From assembly GCA_025356015.1 (NCBI GenBank), contig JANXYO010000010.1:1-64000 (forward strand): a stretch of 64,000 nt of DNA. Direction: 5' to 3'. Positions 48,021-55,082 of the stretch are shown here, piece by piece. Source of the DNA: Spirochaetaceae bacterium. Lineage in GTDB: Bacteria; Spirochaetota; Spirochaetia; Treponematales; Rectinemataceae. The translations under genes were made by a program, and so were the position numbers. Positions within the stretch are counted from its first letter, which is position 1. Each line of letters starts with the position of its first letter. Under the pieces are notes generated by a model. It made no database searches, was not told where the DNA came from, and worked only from the letters and a program-made list of their open reading frames with translations.

Positions 48021-48045
48021 CTGGGGCCTAGGCTCCCTAGGCCCA
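48021..48045 (-). terminator. Hairpin at the end of the glucan phosphorylase gene
   Basis: CTGGGGCCTAGG (48021-48032) pairs with CCTAGGCCCAG (48035-48045) with one bulged G and a tiny loop. The stem contains the stop codon of the phosphorylase gene. No T tract follows. Confidence 0.45.
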
Positions 48046-50574
48046 GCGCACGAGACCCGGCACGAAGGGGCTGACCAGAGCCGGATGCTTTGGAAGGACA
48101 CGCACAGAATAGCCATGCTGCCCGGTCCTGCCGCAAATCACCGTGACACGGTATTCCCAGAGCTTCCCCTTCCTTTCTGCGGCAGTCATCTCATTCCGCT
48201 CCGGGCCAAGTATGTCGCCCTTGTTCGACAGGGCACCATGATAGAGCTCCACAGCGACCTCGGCCGGCTCGAGACCGCCGAGGTCCACCACTGCCCTGGC
48301 CGTGACCTGGTCTCCGCGCTCCATGATGGGTTTCGCATCGGTATCCAGCTCGCCGACCGAGATCTCCGGCCAGGCCTTTCTGACCTTGGCCAGATAGGCC
48401 GCGAGATCCTTGGCCGGAGCGAACTTCGCCTCGGAAAGTTTGCGCCAGTTGTCCAGGGCGGGGAAATAGAAACGCTCGGAGTATTCCTTGAGCATGCGAT
48501 GGGTCGAGAAGTCCTTCCCCGTGCTCCTGATCGAGGCCTTCATGCGCTTGATCCAGTCCCGGGGCAGGCCGTCGCGCCCCCGTTTGTAGAAGAGCGGCAC
48601 GATCTCGCGCTCGAGGAGATCGTAGAGCGCCTCGCTCTCGATCCTGTCCTGGAGTTCCTCGTCCTGGTATTCCTCGCCCGAGCCGATCGCCCAGCCAACA
48701 TCGGGGCCGTAGCCCTCGGCCCACCAGCCGTCGAGGACGGAACAGTTCAGGACTCCGTTGACCCCCGCTTTCATTCCGCTTGTGCCGGACGCCTCAAGGG
48801 GCCTTCGGGGTGTATTGAGCCAGACATCAGAACCCGAGGTCAGGTAGCGGGACATCGTCATGTCATAGTCCTCGAGGAATACGATCCGGCTCTGGACCTC
48901 CTCCTTCCTGGAGAAATGCACGAGCTCCTTGATGATCTCCTTGCCGGGAAGGTCGTGGGGGTGGGCCTTGCCGGCGAAGATGATCTGCACGGGCCTCTGC
49001 TTGTCCGAGAGCAGCCGGAGCAGGCGCTCCGGATCGCGCAGCAGGAGATTGCCGCGCTTGTAGGTCGCGAAACGCCGGGCGAAGGCTATGGTCAGGGCCG
49101 AGGGGGACAGGGCGTCCTCGGCGCGGTAGAGGGCCGAATCATGGGTGCCCGACCTCTTCATCGTGCTCATGAGCCGGTCGCGGGCGTAGACGACGAGGCG
49201 CTCACGCCTCCGCTCGTGGGTGCGCCATAGCTCCTCATCAGAGATCCTGTCCATGCGGTCCCACATGTCGAGGTTCGCCGGTTCCTCATAGAACCTGGGA
49301 CCGAAATAGCGGTCCAGGAGCTCGAGCATGTTGTGGGAAGACCAGGTACGCGGATGAACGCCGTTGGTGATCGAGGAGATCGGGATCTCGTCGATCGGAA
49401 GTCCTGGCCAAAGACCTGCCCACATGGCCCTGGAAACCTCCCCGTGCAGGGCGGACACGCCATTGCTGTAGGCAGAGAGCTTGAGCGCGAGCACAGTCAT
49501 GCAGTAGAGCTCGCTGTCGTCGTCTGGCCTCTCCCTCCCGAGCGCAAGGAATTCCTTCCATTCAAGGCCGAGCTGCTGGGCCCAGGACCGGAAGTAGCGC
49601 TCCATGAGGTCGATGCCGAAGCGCTCGTTGCCCGCAGGAACAGGCGTGTGGGTCGTGAAGATATTCGTCGGCCAGACGACCTGGGCAGCCTCGGCGAAGC
49701 TGAACTTCCGCTCGAACATGAGCTCCCTGATGCGCTCGAGGGCAAGGAAGGCGGAGTGCCCCTCGTTCATGTGCGTGACGGCTGGCTTGATGCCGAGGGC
49801 GTTCAATGCCCTTATTCCGCCTATCCCAAGCACGATTTCCTGCTTGATCCTGGTTTCCCTGTCGCCGCCGTAAAGGGCGGCCGTGATAGTCCTGTCGTCG
49901 GGGGAGTTCTCGTCGATGTTGGTATCGAGCAGGTAGAGGGAGGAACGGCCTACCTTGACCTCCCAGATCTGGGCAGCGACTGTCCTTCCGGCGATATCGA
50001 CCTGGATCAGGATGGGCTTTCCCTCCTGATCGAAGCAGCGGTACACCGGCATGTTGTACCAGTCATTCTCGGGATAGAGTTCCTGCTGGAAGCCGTCGGG
50101 GTTGAGGTATTGCTTAAAGTAGCCTTGGCGATACAGGAGCCCGACTCCGACCAGGGGCAGTCCCATATCGCTCGCGGTCTTCATGTGGTCGCCGGAAAGG
50201 ATGCCGAGTCCGCCGGAATAGGTAGGCAGGGATACGTCGAGCCCATACTCCATGGAGAAGTAGGCGACAACCCCGTCCTTCTGGCCCTTGTACCAGGTCT
50301 CGCCCTTCTTGTATCGCTCGAATCGCTCTGTGGTCTCGTTCAGGGCCGCCAGATATGAGTCATCCTGGGCGAGCTCGTCATAGCGCTCCTGCGAGACCAT
50401 GCCGAGCATCTTGGCGGGATTCTGGGCCGACTTGAGCCAGACCTCGTAATCGAGGCGGATGAAGAGCATGATCGCCTGGAAATTCCACGAGAGCCACAGG
50501 TTGTGCGCCATCTCCTCGAGGGAGGCGAGAGCCGGAGGTATCTTGGGTTTTACCGTGTGGGAAACGATCTTCAT
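48037..50574 (-). CDS. glgP: Alpha-glucan (glycogen/maltodextrin) phosphorylase
   Basis: An 845-aa PLP-dependent GT35 enzyme that releases glucose 1-phosphate from alpha-1,4-glucans. It belongs to the short alpha-glucan phosphorylase type, with NLWLSWNFQAIMLFI near the start, YFSMEYGLDVSLPTYSGGLG near 108-127, and HMNEGHSAFLALERI near 285. The PLP-binding region is SGTSGMKAGVNGVLNC near residue 600. A small beta domain extends the C-terminus. I start at the ATG at 50574, where the family similarity begins; 30 further codons are open but non-conserved. It mobilises stored glucan or imported maltodextrins. Confidence 0.95.
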   Translation of the reverse strand: MKIVSHTVKPKIPPALASLEEMAHNLWLSWNFQAIMLFIRLDYEVWLKSAQNPAKMLGMVSQERYDELAQDDSYLAALNETTERFERYKKGETWYKGQKDGVVAYFSMEYGLDVSLPTYSGGLGILSGDHMKTASDMGLPLVGVGLLYRQGYFKQYLNPDGFQQELYPENDWYNMPVYRCFDQEGKPILIQVDIAGRTVAAQIWEVKVGRSSLYLLDTNIDENSPDDRTITAALYGGDRETRIKQEIVLGIGGIRALNALGIKPAVTHMNEGHSAFLALERIRELMFERKFSFAEAAQVVWPTNIFTTHTPVPAGNERFGIDLMERYFRSWAQQLGLEWKEFLALGRERPDDDSELYCMTVLALKLSAYSNGVSALHGEVSRAMWAGLWPGLPIDEIPISSITNGVHPRTWSSHNMLELLDRYFGPRFYEEPANLDMWDRMDRISDEELWRTHERRRERLVVYARDRLMSTMKRSGTHDSALYRAEDALSPSALTIAFARRFATYKRGNLLLRDPERLLRLLSDKQRPVQIIFAGKAHPHDLPGKEIIKELVHFSRKEEVQSRIVFLEDYDMTMSRYLTSGSDVWLNTPRRPLEASGTSGMKAGVNGVLNCSVLDGWWAEGYGPDVGWAIGSGEEYQDEELQDRIESEALYDLLEREIVPLFYKRGRDGLPRDWIKRMKASIRSTGKDFSTHRMLKEYSERFYFPALDNWRKLSEAKFAPAKDLAAYLAKVRKAWPEISVGELDTDAKPIMERGDQVTARAVVDLGGLEPAEVAVELYHGALSNKGDILGPERNEMTAAERKGKLWEYRVTVICGRTGQHGYSVRVLPKHPALVSPFVPGLVRWA

Positions 50575-50720
50575 GTCCGCCGCCTTCGATGGTAAGTGGC
50601 CCGTGCGCGATCTGGGCTCGCGGGCTTCCTTCGAAAGACTAGTCGAGCAAGGGGTCGGCGTCAATATTGAACCGGTTTAGCAGGCCCTGGGCCGTGGCTC
50701 GTAGAGCGCTGCTACGCCAA

Positions 50721-50775: not shown

Positions 50776-52761
50776 CTAGTCTTTTTTTCGGAGCGAGCCA
50801 AACAAGCGCCCAAATATCCCCTTGGCCTGCTCGGGAGCCTGTTCGCCTCTGGACTTCTCGGGAGGCGGGCCCGCCGCCTGTGAGGGCCGTGAGGAGCCGG
50901 AGGCCTCTGCCTGGGGTCTTGGACCGCGGCGCCCGCCATCGCGGGGCCCCCGAGGGGTCCCGGGATTCCTCCCCTGGCCCTTTCGGCTCTCCTGCTTTCC
51001 CCCGCCGCCCTTTCCCCCTGGCTGCTGTCCCTGCCGTCCGCCCTGCTGGCGATTTTCGTCGGAGCGCTCGTTGCCTAGCCTGCGTCCGTATTTTTCCCGA
51101 TAGCGACGCATGCGCTCTTCCATCGACATGTCGTAGGGATTGCCGGAAGGCTCAGGGGGCCTTTGCGGCGCCTCACGCCTCGAATCGGCTCGGCGGGCGG
51201 CTGGCTTCACTTCCGGCTTCGCGGCCCCACGCCTGCCCCCCTTCGAATCGCCAGCGCCTCGGCCGTCCTTGCGTCCACCCTCACGTCGCGCCGACGGAGG
51301 ATTCGGCTTCCGCTCTGGCCGGTTTCTCTCGGGACCTTTCGCAAGAGGACCGCGGGGGATGTCGTTGAAGTCCAGAGAGCCGCCCGTGGCCTCGGCGATG
51401 CTTCGCCTTATGTCAGGGCTGCGGTCGTCGCGGAGGGCTGGATCCCTTGGCCTTCGCTGATCCCGCGAGGGGCCTTCGGCAGCAAGCCGCGGCGGTCCTC
51501 GGCGCTCCTGGGACCGCCGGCCATCGGCGCGGTTGCCGTCCTGGGGCGCGCGGGGACTTCGCCCCGGCCTGTCCCTTCCCGGGGACCTTTGCTGGTTATC
51601 GAAGTGCATCCCGGAGCTCCGGTCCACAGCCAAGAGGAGGGATTCGTCCACCGTCTTCGCATCAAGCTTCATCTCGATGTACTGCTCGATCGCCGGCAGG
51701 CCGATGGCATAGCGGTCACAGGCCATGCTCACGATCTTCGCTCCCGTAGCGTCCCGGTCGAGCATCTCCATGCGGCGCACAAAGAATTCCGGTTCAAGGG
51801 GAATGTCGTAATTGATGCAAAGCGGGAACTCAGCTTTGGGGATTTCCTGCGCGCCCTCGTCCGTGAGCACGAGCACGAGCTGCTCACCCGAGCGGCACTT
51901 TTCGAGGATCGCGAAATTGCGCTCCTCGGCAAGGGAACCGAGTATGTAGTCACTGGAGACCCCGTTCGCCACCAGACGCTTTGAGAGCTCGGTCGCGGTG
52001 CCCTTGAGATTGCAGAACACGCAGACCCTGGCTGGTTTTTCGCGATCGAAGAGTCCGAGGAGGAACCTGACCTTGTCCTCGGCCGGAAGGTACCAGGTCT
52101 CGCACTGCGCGCTCTGCGCCTTGACCACATCGCCCTCGATCTGGATTTCCGAGGGATTGTCTGCAAGGTCGAGGGAGAGGTTCCTAGTCTTCACGGTGAT
52201 CCTCGCACAGGCAAGGAGGGTCCGCCTTTCCCAGGAAGGGAGAAGCGAGCTCGAAAAACGGCGCAGGAAGTCGCTGCTCATTTCTGCGAGCCGATCGGCA
52301 GCGTCGACGACCAGAAAGCCGTATTGCCTAAGATCGATCGTGCCCGAGGACGAAGCAGCCAGGAGAGCAGAGGGGAGGCCGACAACGATCTGCGCCGAAG
52401 GTTCCCCCTCGTAGACGGGCACTCCGGTCTCGCTGTCGTCTGCGATGAGGCAGACATCGACATCGATGGCCAGGGCCAGGCGTCGCGCCGTGGCCGCGAT
52501 CTTCTCGGCCGAGACCTCGTCGGGGACCGCGATGAGGACCCTCTGCCCAGCCTGGGCGGTGTTCTCTCCCGAGGCGAGCCATTGCAGGGCGGGAAGGAGG
52601 ATGACTTCTTCTCGTCCCTCCCCCAGCGAGACCTTCGCGCAGACGTTCTCTTTCTTCTGAATCGCGTGGACAAGCATCTTTTCGTGAAAGACCGCTCCTG
52701 AAACAAAACCGGCGGCGAGGCCCGCGAGCCTCTCATCAATGCCGAAACGCTGGAAATCCAT
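50776..52761 (-). CDS. Degenerate DEAD-box helicase-like protein with Arg/Gly-rich tail
   Basis: A 661-aa protein with the two-domain DEAD-box layout but altered catalytic motifs. Motif I (GxGKT) reads GEGRE at 47-51, so the Walker Lys and Thr are lost. Motif II (DEAD) is DAAD at 153-156, lacking the catalytic Glu. Motif III (SAT) is CAR at 185-187. Motif V ends GAQEI instead of AARGID-like, and motif VI keeps only scattered Arg (VRRMEMLDRDATG). A Q-motif-like start (FQRFGIDERL) remains. From about 390 the tail is disordered and rich in Arg, Gly, Pro and Gln, ending in GIFGRLFGSLRKKD. It is probably an RNA-binding protein that cannot hydrolyse ATP. Confidence 0.85.
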   Translation of the reverse strand: MDFQRFGIDERLAGLAAGFVSGAVFHEKMLVHAIQKKENVCAKVSLGEGREEVILLPALQWLASGENTAQAGQRVLIAVPDEVSAEKIAATARRLALAIDVDVCLIADDSETGVPVYEGEPSAQIVVGLPSALLAASSSGTIDLRQYGFLVVDAADRLAEMSSDFLRRFSSSLLPSWERRTLLACARITVKTRNLSLDLADNPSEIQIEGDVVKAQSAQCETWYLPAEDKVRFLLGLFDREKPARVCVFCNLKGTATELSKRLVANGVSSDYILGSLAEERNFAILEKCRSGEQLVLVLTDEGAQEIPKAEFPLCINYDIPLEPEFFVRRMEMLDRDATGAKIVSMACDRYAIGLPAIEQYIEMKLDAKTVDESLLLAVDRSSGMHFDNQQRSPGRDRPGRSPRAPQDGNRADGRRSQERRGPPRLAAEGPSRDQRRPRDPALRDDRSPDIRRSIAEATGGSLDFNDIPRGPLAKGPERNRPERKPNPPSARREGGRKDGRGAGDSKGGRRGAAKPEVKPAARRADSRREAPQRPPEPSGNPYDMSMEERMRRYREKYGRRLGNERSDENRQQGGRQGQQPGGKGGGGKQESRKGQGRNPGTPRGPRDGGRRGPRPQAEASGSSRPSQAAGPPPEKSRGEQAPEQAKGIFGRLFGSLRKKD

Positions 52762-53138: not shown

Positions 53139-55082
53139 ATGGGCGAGAAGAAGAAGATCCTGATTCTTGGAGGCGGCTACGGCGGCGTCTGGGCTGGCAA
53201 GATCCTAGAAAAGCATTTCAGGAAGCGTGAGGACATCGCAATAACCCTCGTGGACAAGCGCCCCTTCCACACACTCATGACGGAATTGCATGAGGTCGCT
53301 GGCTGGCGCACCGAGCCCGAATCCGTGCAGGTGAGCTTCAGGAAGATCTTCGGCGCGAAGCGCATAGAGACCGTCGTCGACACCATCGAGAGAATCGACT
53401 TCGATGCCAAGAAGGCCTATTCGGCGCGGAGCGAATATCCCTTCGATTACATCGTCATCGGCGCGGGAGCCGAGCCCGAATACTTCGGCATCCCCGGAGT
53501 CAAGGAAAACTCCTTCTCGCTCTGGTCCTTCGACGACGCGCTCAGGATCAGGCATCATCTCGAGCACACCTACGCAAGGGCAGCCATGGAGCCCGATCCG
53601 GCCCGCCGCAGGCAGATGCTCACCTTTACCGTCGCGGGCGCCGGCTTCACCGGCAGCGAGATGGTCGGCGAACTGCTCGAGTACCGCGATTCCATGTGCA
53701 AGAAGCTCTTCATCGACCCGAAGGAAGTCAGGATCATCGTGATCGAGGCCTTGCCGGCCATCCTGCCAATCCTCGAGGCCCCCCTGCGCGCCAAGGCCGA
53801 GAACTACCTCGTGAAGCACGGCGCCGAGATACTGCTCGGCAAGGCGATCGTCGGTGCCGAGCCGGGGAAGGTCATCCTCAAGGATGGTGGCGTGGTCGAG
53901 ACCGACACCTTCATCTGGACCTGCGGCGTCAAGGGCTCCTCCTTCTCTGGCTCCCTGCCATTGCCCATGGGCAAGCGGGGCCGCATCGAGACCGACGCAG
54001 AGATGAAGTCGCCGAAATACCCCTTTGTCTATGTGGTGGGTGACAACGCCTGGTACCTCCTCAATGAGGTGGCGATCGCCCAGATCGTCGAGAGCTGCCA
54101 CTTCTCCGCGGAAGCCGCTGCGAAGAACATCATCGCCGACATCGACGGAGGGGAACGCCACAAGTTCAAGGCGACCTACCACGGCTTCATGATCTCCCTT
54201 GGCGGACGCTATGCAGTCTCGAACGCGGGCGGCATGAAGACCACGGGTTTCGTCGCGATCGCGATGAAGCACTTGATCAACCTCTACTACCTCTTCTGCA
54301 TCGCGGGCGCCAACCAGGCCTGGGAATACCTAAAGCACGAGATCCTCGACATGAGGGAAAACCGCTCCCTCATCGGTGGCTTCGCTTCATACAAGGTCCG
54401 GGGATACTGGCCCCTCCTGCTTCGGCTCTGGCTCGGTTTCATGTGGGTCGTCGAGGCAACGAACAAGATGACCGAAGGCTGGCTCGATTTCTCGAGCGGC
54501 CTCAGCAAGACAGGATGGATGTTCTCCCAGGGCGTAATGCAGGCCGGCCAGAAACTCGCCGACGCGACGGGGGCGGCTTCGGCTGCCACCGGCGATGCCG
54601 CTGGTGCTGTCGCCGCCACGGCCGTCGAGGCGACAAGCGCCGCGAGCGCCACAGCTGCCGCTCCCGCCGCAGCAGTCCTTGGCCCCTGGTTCGACACGAC
54701 CAAGAACATCCTCGACCCGGCTTCTGGACTGGTCACCTGGTTCAGACATACCTTCATGGACGGCATTTTTGCCCACATGCCATATACCGGATTTCAGCTC
54801 ATGATCGTCCTCACCGAGCTATTCATCGGCCTCGCCCTGCTCGGAGGTTTCTTCACCTGGTTCGCGGCTGTCGCGAGCATAGCGATGTGCCTCATCTTCA
54901 CCCTCTCCGGCATGTTCGCCTGGAACCAGCTCTGGTTCCTTTTCGCGGCCATCCTGTGCATGGGCGGAGTCGGAAGGGCATTTGGACTGGACTACTGGTC
55001 CGTCCCCTTCTTCAAGAAGTGGTGGAATGGCACGAAGATCGCCCGCCGCACCCACCTCTATGGGGACGACCCCACGAAATAG
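53139..55082 (+). CDS. NDH-2-type NADH dehydrogenase fused to a C-terminal membrane domain
   Basis: A 647-aa protein. Residues 1 to about 400 are a type II NADH:quinone oxidoreductase-like flavoprotein: ILILGGGYGGVWAGK (FAD, residues 5-19), FTVAGAGFTGSEMVGELLEY (second nucleotide motif near 167) and YPFVYVVGDNAWY. From about 420 there are four hydrophobic segments resembling a DoxX-type membrane protein (YWPLLLRLWLGFMWVVEATN; ELFIGLALLGGFFTW). Between segments lies an Ala/Thr-rich linker (about 478-515). It would oxidise NADH without pumping protons and anchor itself through the fused domain. AAGGAG lies 10 nt before the ATG. A prenyl synthase follows. Confidence 0.87.
   Translation: MGEKKKILILGGGYGGVWAGKILEKHFRKREDIAITLVDKRPFHTLMTELHEVAGWRTEPESVQVSFRKIFGAKRIETVVDTIERIDFDAKKAYSARSEYPFDYIVIGAGAEPEYFGIPGVKENSFSLWSFDDALRIRHHLEHTYARAAMEPDPARRRQMLTFTVAGAGFTGSEMVGELLEYRDSMCKKLFIDPKEVRIIVIEALPAILPILEAPLRAKAENYLVKHGAEILLGKAIVGAEPGKVILKDGGVVETDTFIWTCGVKGSSFSGSLPLPMGKRGRIETDAEMKSPKYPFVYVVGDNAWYLLNEVAIAQIVESCHFSAEAAAKNIIADIDGGERHKFKATYHGFMISLGGRYAVSNAGGMKTTGFVAIAMKHLINLYYLFCIAGANQAWEYLKHEILDMRENRSLIGGFASYKVRGYWPLLLRLWLGFMWVVEATNKMTEGWLDFSSGLSKTGWMFSQGVMQAGQKLADATGAASAATGDAAGAVAATAVEATSAASATAAAPAAAVLGPWFDTTKNILDPASGLVTWFRHTFMDGIFAHMPYTGFQLMIVLTELFIGLALLGGFFTWFAAVASIAMCLIFTLSGMFAWNQLWFLFAAILCMGGVGRAFGLDYWSVPFFKKWWNGTKIARRTHLYGDDPTK

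Follow-up and report, generated by a model that had tools for sequence, protein, structure and literature searches.

A conserved family of degenerate DEAD-box proteins in Spirochaetota, probable adaptors or regulators that would work without ATP

The study of pseudoenzymes is well advanced for kinases and proteases, but very few helicases have been called pseudohelicases. Among active DEAD-box helicases, CshA carries a disordered basic tail and associates with RNase Y degradosomes in Gram-positives. Utp25/Def is a pseudohelicase of the eukaryotic SSU processome, proposed as a helicase cofactor or scaffold, and the yeast Utp25 has been presented as "only the second proposed pseudohelicase" (PMC9539457). 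In bacteria, the PriA protein of Deinococcus radiodurans has negligible ATPase and helicase activity and has kept a binding role (PMC4504706, PMC9539457). These were the only two named pseudohelicases found in the open-access literature, the subscription literature lying outside the search; within the same scope the search turned up no bacterial DEAD-box pseudohelicase, and nothing on point concerning spirochaete degradosome helicases, degenerate DEAD-box proteins or inactive bacterial paralogues.

Here we describe a candidate from a Spirochaetaceae bacterium, located in a stretch of 64,000 nucleotides that we refer to as the window. The original prediction had read one of its genes, an ORF that starts with ATG, as a DEAD-box protein deprived of every catalytic motif but not of its RNA-binding tail, in other words a purposeful pseudo-helicase. 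The gene and its core are laid out as follows:

50776..52761, (-) strand: pseudohelicase gene, 661 aa; ORF with Pfam DEAD and Helicase_C matches, family across Spirochaetota
52147..52761, (-) strand: N-terminal RecA-like lobe, approximately residues 1-205, ATP-site motifs lost (AlphaFold2, motif table)
51592..52146, (-) strand: C-terminal RecA-like lobe, approximately residues 206-390, better conserved, with FCNLK, TD and R330 kept (AlphaFold2, motif table)
52609..52632, (-) strand: degenerate motif I, VSLGEGRE for SQTGTGKT (motif comparison)
52291..52305, (-) strand: degenerate motif II, DAADR for DEADR (motif comparison)
52201..52209, (-) strand: degenerate motif III, CAR for SAT (motif comparison)
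51748..51786, (-) strand: degenerate motif VI, FFVRRMEMLDRDA for SYVHRIGRTARAG (motif comparison)

The profile search that had been proposed for residues 1-380 placed both Pfam domains above their cut-offs, albeit weakly: DEAD over residues 30-186 (4.6e-10) and Helicase_C over residues 230-331 (1.7e-6). Scanned against Pfam up to E = 1, the protein gave only these two and one unrelated weak match, with none to the Utp25 family profile, and it scores far below the cut-offs of the NCBIfam RhlB, SrmB, DbpA and CshA profiles. Its gene is one of 15 loci above the Pfam DEAD cut-off in its own 4.17 Mb genome, and a tblastn search of plasmids returned generic helicases only, at 23-26% identity. AlphaFold2, run with a 17-sequence alignment, folds the core (residues 1-390) into two RecA-like domains with a mean pLDDT of 89.4; the inter-domain certainty of this model is low (pTM 0.58). 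Its top Foldseek matches are CshA structures (9a76 and 5ivl, 4e-23 and 6e-23), with Hera also among them, and VIA-align superposes it on DEAD-box structures with Z scores of 24-29 over 325-363 residues, the large rmsd of these alignments reflecting lobe orientation. The tandem RecA-like domains of a DEAD-box RNA helicase are therefore recognized by AlphaFold2, Foldseek, VIA-align and Pfam, and the two lobes first aligned by eye are borne out by a high-confidence prediction, failure to obtain them having been named as one outcome that would speak against the idea.

Motifs were compared with those of intact relatives, and retained residues were counted over the 35 members of the family. The substitutions initially read from the letters (GKT to GRE, DEAD to DAAD, SAT to CAR and HRIGR to RRMEM) are all correct in this comparison. 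Moreover, in the window protein the Q-motif MPVQ has become AVFH, motif Ia APTRELA reads VPDEVSA, motif Ib GTPGR reads GLPSA and motif V ATDVAARGLD reads LTDEGAQEIP, while the GG and IVa motifs are also degenerate. The claim that every catalytic motif is gone holds for most of them but is slightly too strong: motif IV (FCN) survives, motif V retains its TD, and motif VI its first Arg (R330). An active enzyme of this class should display the Q motif and the Walker A GKT, the D-E-A-D of motif II and the SAT of motif III, and the arginine fingers of motif VI (HRxGRxxR); at these places the window protein carries AVFH and GRE, DAAD and CAR, and no such set of fingers. Across the family, the Q-motif Gln, the Walker Lys (replaced by Arg in 30/35), the Walker Thr, the motif Ib Arg, the IVa Gln, and the His and second Arg of motif VI are kept in 0/35 members. 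The DEAD Glu and the SAT Thr persist in one member each out of 35, the GG residues in 0/35 and 2/35, the IVa Arg in 3/35 and the motif V Arg in 5/35; the third Arg of motif VI is counted in 10/35 by alignment column, the window protein reading RRMEMLDR against HRxGRxxR, and R330 is present in all 35. Losses are only modestly enriched in motif columns relative to other invariant positions (per-column Fisher p 0.08), since fast evolution affects the N-lobe as a whole; the C-lobe is the more conserved of the two among the 35 members. A statistical claim that losses concentrate in the motifs was consequently dropped, and we argue instead from retention residue by residue. The protein combines a helicase fold, kept according to prediction, with the loss of catalytic residues, as is expected of a pseudohelicase.

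Compared with the described systems, it resembles Utp25/Def in its DEAD-box fold, vestigial motifs, proposed origin by duplication and probable non-catalytic role (PMC9539457). Utp25/Def is, however, eukaryotic and nucleolar and has its accessory region at the N-terminus, whereas the window protein lacks a Utp25 Pfam match and has an identifiable intact sister helicase with a shared docking tail. Like Deinococcus PriA, it is a bacterial member of a helicase family that would have lost its activity and kept a binding role; unlike it, PriA is a DNA replication-restart protein outside the DEAD-box group and is itself the enzyme that was replaced, with no intact paralogue beside it. CshA (PDB 5ivl, 9a76), the best Foldseek match, has a similar disordered basic tail, but it is an active ATPase with all motifs present, at approximately 20% identity.

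The family analysed comprises 35 members from 24 or more Spirochaetota genomes, in two families of one order and about 20 genera. In the 59 related genomes searched, orthologues share 34-59% identity within the taxonomic family of the window and 38-41% in the second family; close relatives with named records are MAGs of uncultured Spirochaetota. All orthologues carry the same motif losses, which are thus not due to chance, and are distinct, at about 30% identity, from an intact paralogue called at E < 1e-200. The latter occurs in the same genome (e.g., contig C72:13143-14303) with all catalytic motifs intact. It has in common with the window protein about 30% core identity, an NPYxxSxEERMxxYKEKYG helix and a C-terminal end of glycine, hydrophobic and basic residues; it differs from the pseudohelicase in its complete motifs, its slower evolution, the absence by pattern of an IRxxIAEATGG element, and its location away from glgP.

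Within the window's family, the intact paralogue is found in 10 of 30 genomes, in genera g1-g4, g7, g9 and g10; genera g5, g6, g8 and g11-g14 lack it, even in genomes that are 92-99% complete. All seven genera without it keep the dead copy, which has therefore outlived the active one there. The dead copy is present in nearly all of this family except g10, whose two genomes have kept the intact paralogue and where no dead copy was found, so that it is not essential in all lineages. By score, families f3 and f5 of the order have the intact helicase only, and most genomes of family f4 have both, fragments and contig ends limiting this count. The most degenerate pseudohelicases belong to genus g12 (L133-L141), with a very divergent N-lobe and SND or AND in place of the motif V TD; they keep the tail helix YSMSTEERLAYFRNKY, and the active paralogue is absent from their genomes. 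In three other members (L049, L050 and L064) a long stretch of low complexity is inserted into the C-lobe immediately ahead of the LTDEGA segment.

All dead copies form one clade (SH-aLRT 100; bootstrap and SH-aLRT 100/100 in a careful tree) above a long stem of 1.0-1.2 changes per site. Trees constrained so that each lineage's dead copies join its intact copy were rejected (p-AU 6e-7 and 2e-6), and these AU tests rule out independent decay in place, lineage by lineage. The trees show a single duplication from an order-specific intact helicase, before the two spirochaete families split; as an outgroup for this duplication family f2 was set aside, being represented by one genome only. Since the dead clade is monophyletic and its locus is common to both families, one ancient origin followed by vertical descent is the simplest reading. 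Furthermore, dN/dS lies between 0.10 and 0.36 across both lobes, and these values, together with presence in about 20 genera, indicate maintenance by purifying selection.

The possibility that the gene is a pseudogene, or decays under relaxed constraint, could appeal to the long branch below the family (1.0-1.2 changes per site). Yet ORFs are full-length in all complete members, the locus is conserved and the dead copy survives in smaller genomes lacking the active one; near-invariant positions, distribution and a dN/dS well below 1 rule this reading out, and we give it practically no credence. The original prediction, which held the pattern to be unlike random decay, is upheld by a monophyletic family with the same losses throughout and a dN/dS of about 0.1-0.36, and its purposeful pseudo-helicase is well supported by predicted fold, single origin, selection and retention without the active paralogue. 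The contrary case that it had named, close homologues with intact motifs and no selection on this copy, was not encountered, the intact protein being an older paralogue. It is also very improbable that the protein is still an enzyme, with a remodelled nucleotide site instead of the canonical one: the Arg at the Walker Lys position in 30/35 members and the retained motif IV, TD and R330 would suit such a site, but the P-loop glycines, Walker Thr, DEAD Glu and motif VI Arg positions vary freely, unlike an active site, and the fact that the substitutes differ among members argues against a new conserved one.

The remaining part of the protein is its tail, whose features are the following:

50779..51591, (-) strand: disordered R/G/P/Q-rich tail, residues 391-661, pI 11.6 (composition; pLDDT mostly <50)
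51370..51423, (-) strand: tail element 1, RSPDIRRSIAEATGGSLD, predicted helix 449-459, in 20/35 pseudohelicases and 0/16 intact helicases (same pattern)
51085..51147, (-) strand: tail element 2, SGNPYDMSMEERMRRYREKYG, predicted helix 547-563, pLDDT ~81, common to the intact paralogue
50779..50820, (-) strand: tail element 3, C-terminal GIFGRLFGSLRKKD, hydrophobic/basic end, common to the intact paralogue

With 271 aa (20% Arg, 16% Gly, 13% Pro), it corresponds to the Arg/Gly/Pro/Gln-rich tail of some 270 residues noticed initially. In the full-length AlphaFold2 model the tail is helical at the three conserved elements and almost nowhere else, and conservation sits in short helices, not in RG composition. 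The NPYxMSMEERMxxYREKYG helix is found by strict pattern in 33/35 dead members, the other two having a one-residue variant, and in 11/16 intact helicases. A degenerate DNA pattern for it has two matches in the 4.17 Mb genome, one per paralogue, and its reversed control none; order-wide, nearly all matches lie just behind a dead or an intact helicase gene. In turn, the IRxxIAEATGG helix is present in all 20 analysed dead members from lineages retaining the active paralogue and in 0/15 from the subclade without it, a link that is a lead only, as it represents one event on the tree. The intact helicase L036, from the f2 genome, carries in its tail RIAQATGGN, resembling this element otherwise seen only in pseudohelicases; the element may therefore be ancestral and have been partitioned after the duplication. 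The idea that the C-terminal end is amphipathic and anchors the protein to the membrane was discarded, its hydrophobic moments being no higher than those of shuffled sequences.

Taken as a whole, we consider it probable that these proteins form a conserved bacterial pseudohelicase family of ATP-independent adaptors or regulators, docking on the partner that the active helicase uses, for which an RNase Y-type degradosome is one possibility. The computations show that an intact CshA/RhlB-like helicase with a disordered R/G/Q tail was duplicated before the two families split; one copy lost its ATPase and RNA-clamping residues but preserved both lobes of the fold, most of all the C-lobe, together with the docking helix of the tail. 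Purifying selection has maintained this copy ever since, and in several genera it does so although the active one is gone. The NPYxMSMEERMxxYREKYG helix would dock on the same partner as the tail of the active helicase: that these elements stay conserved while the tail around them changes quickly, and are shared with the active paralogue alone, points to one partner for both, even if a motif common to paralogues could be inheritance not yet lost, though the tail otherwise diverges fast. The pseudohelicase would either occupy the docking site instead of the active enzyme, as a brake or place-holder, or recruit something else to it through the C-lobe, and the Arg-rich tail would hold RNA nonspecifically. 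An RNase Y-centred degradosome is a plausible partner because RNase Y is present in the genome, RNase E/G was looked for there and not found, and the nearest solved relative is CshA. The dead core is more likely a protein-binding than an RNA-binding platform, given the loss of ATP-driven RNA clamping and a more acidic core (mean pI 5.16 in pseudohelicases vs 5.73 in intact relatives). The pseudohelicase-specific IRxxIAEATGG helix may bind the active paralogue itself. A bolder version, to which we grant somewhat less than even chances, is that this is the first bacterial DEAD-box pseudohelicase family, sharing the docking site of the active helicase, regulating the latter through this private helix, and having taken over the site entirely in seven genera once the active helicase was gone.

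Two other readings concern the tail and the genomic context, the latter including these neighbours:

48037..50664, (-) strand: glgP-type alpha-glucan phosphorylase (DUF3417 + Phosphorylase), next gene downstream, conserved neighbour
53139..55082, (+) strand: NADH dehydrogenase-like gene, divergent conserved neighbour

An RNA chaperone or condensate scaffold, whose Arg/Gly-rich tail binds RNA and phase-separates over a passive or dimerising dead core, would agree with a disordered tail of pI 11.6 (20% Arg, 16% Gly) and with the better conservation of the C-lobe. Nevertheless, the intact paralogue has a tail of the same kind, also of pI 11.6, and a feature that both have does not account for why only one lost catalysis; moreover, tail conservation follows short helices and not RG composition. 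A chaperone acting through the core is made less likely by the greater acidity of the core than in intact relatives and by the loss of most residues with which Ia, Ib, GG, IVa and V contact RNA. We regard this reading as unlikely, though worth keeping in mind; among the roles originally proposed, decoy or scaffold would fit best, because the tail docking element is common only to the intact paralogue. More doubtful still is a regulator tied to glycogen use, either as a partner of the glgP product or by controlling it at the mRNA level. Where the flank is long enough, a same-strand glgP lies directly downstream in about 17/24 genomes, drawn from both families, and at the loci checked it was never beside the intact paralogue; but in about 7/24 another gene intervenes or glgP is not nearby, and gene order can be plain inheritance, the divergent ndh being about equally conserved in a locus (glgP - pseudohelicase - divergent ndh - polyprenyl synthetase, with dnaJ/dnaK near) common to the two families. 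Between pseudohelicase and glgP, a promoter and terminator scan found no minus-strand terminator-like site, and terminator-like counts were not above those of shuffles. The NADH dehydrogenase-like protein itself (53139-55082, (+) strand) contains a long linker rich in Ala and ends in a hydrophobic extension outside Pfam coverage.

Pfam-based annotation labels such dead proteins as "RNA helicase", which is a warning. In turn, a large bacterial family with an intact parent and a shared docking motif constitutes a ready comparison for what a DEAD-box core does without ATP, for which natural lineages with both copies, the dead one only or the active one only are available. Since the dead copy has been kept across at least 20 genera, and in half of the window's family even where the working helicase was lost, what it is worth to the cell must come from a function other than RNA unwinding.
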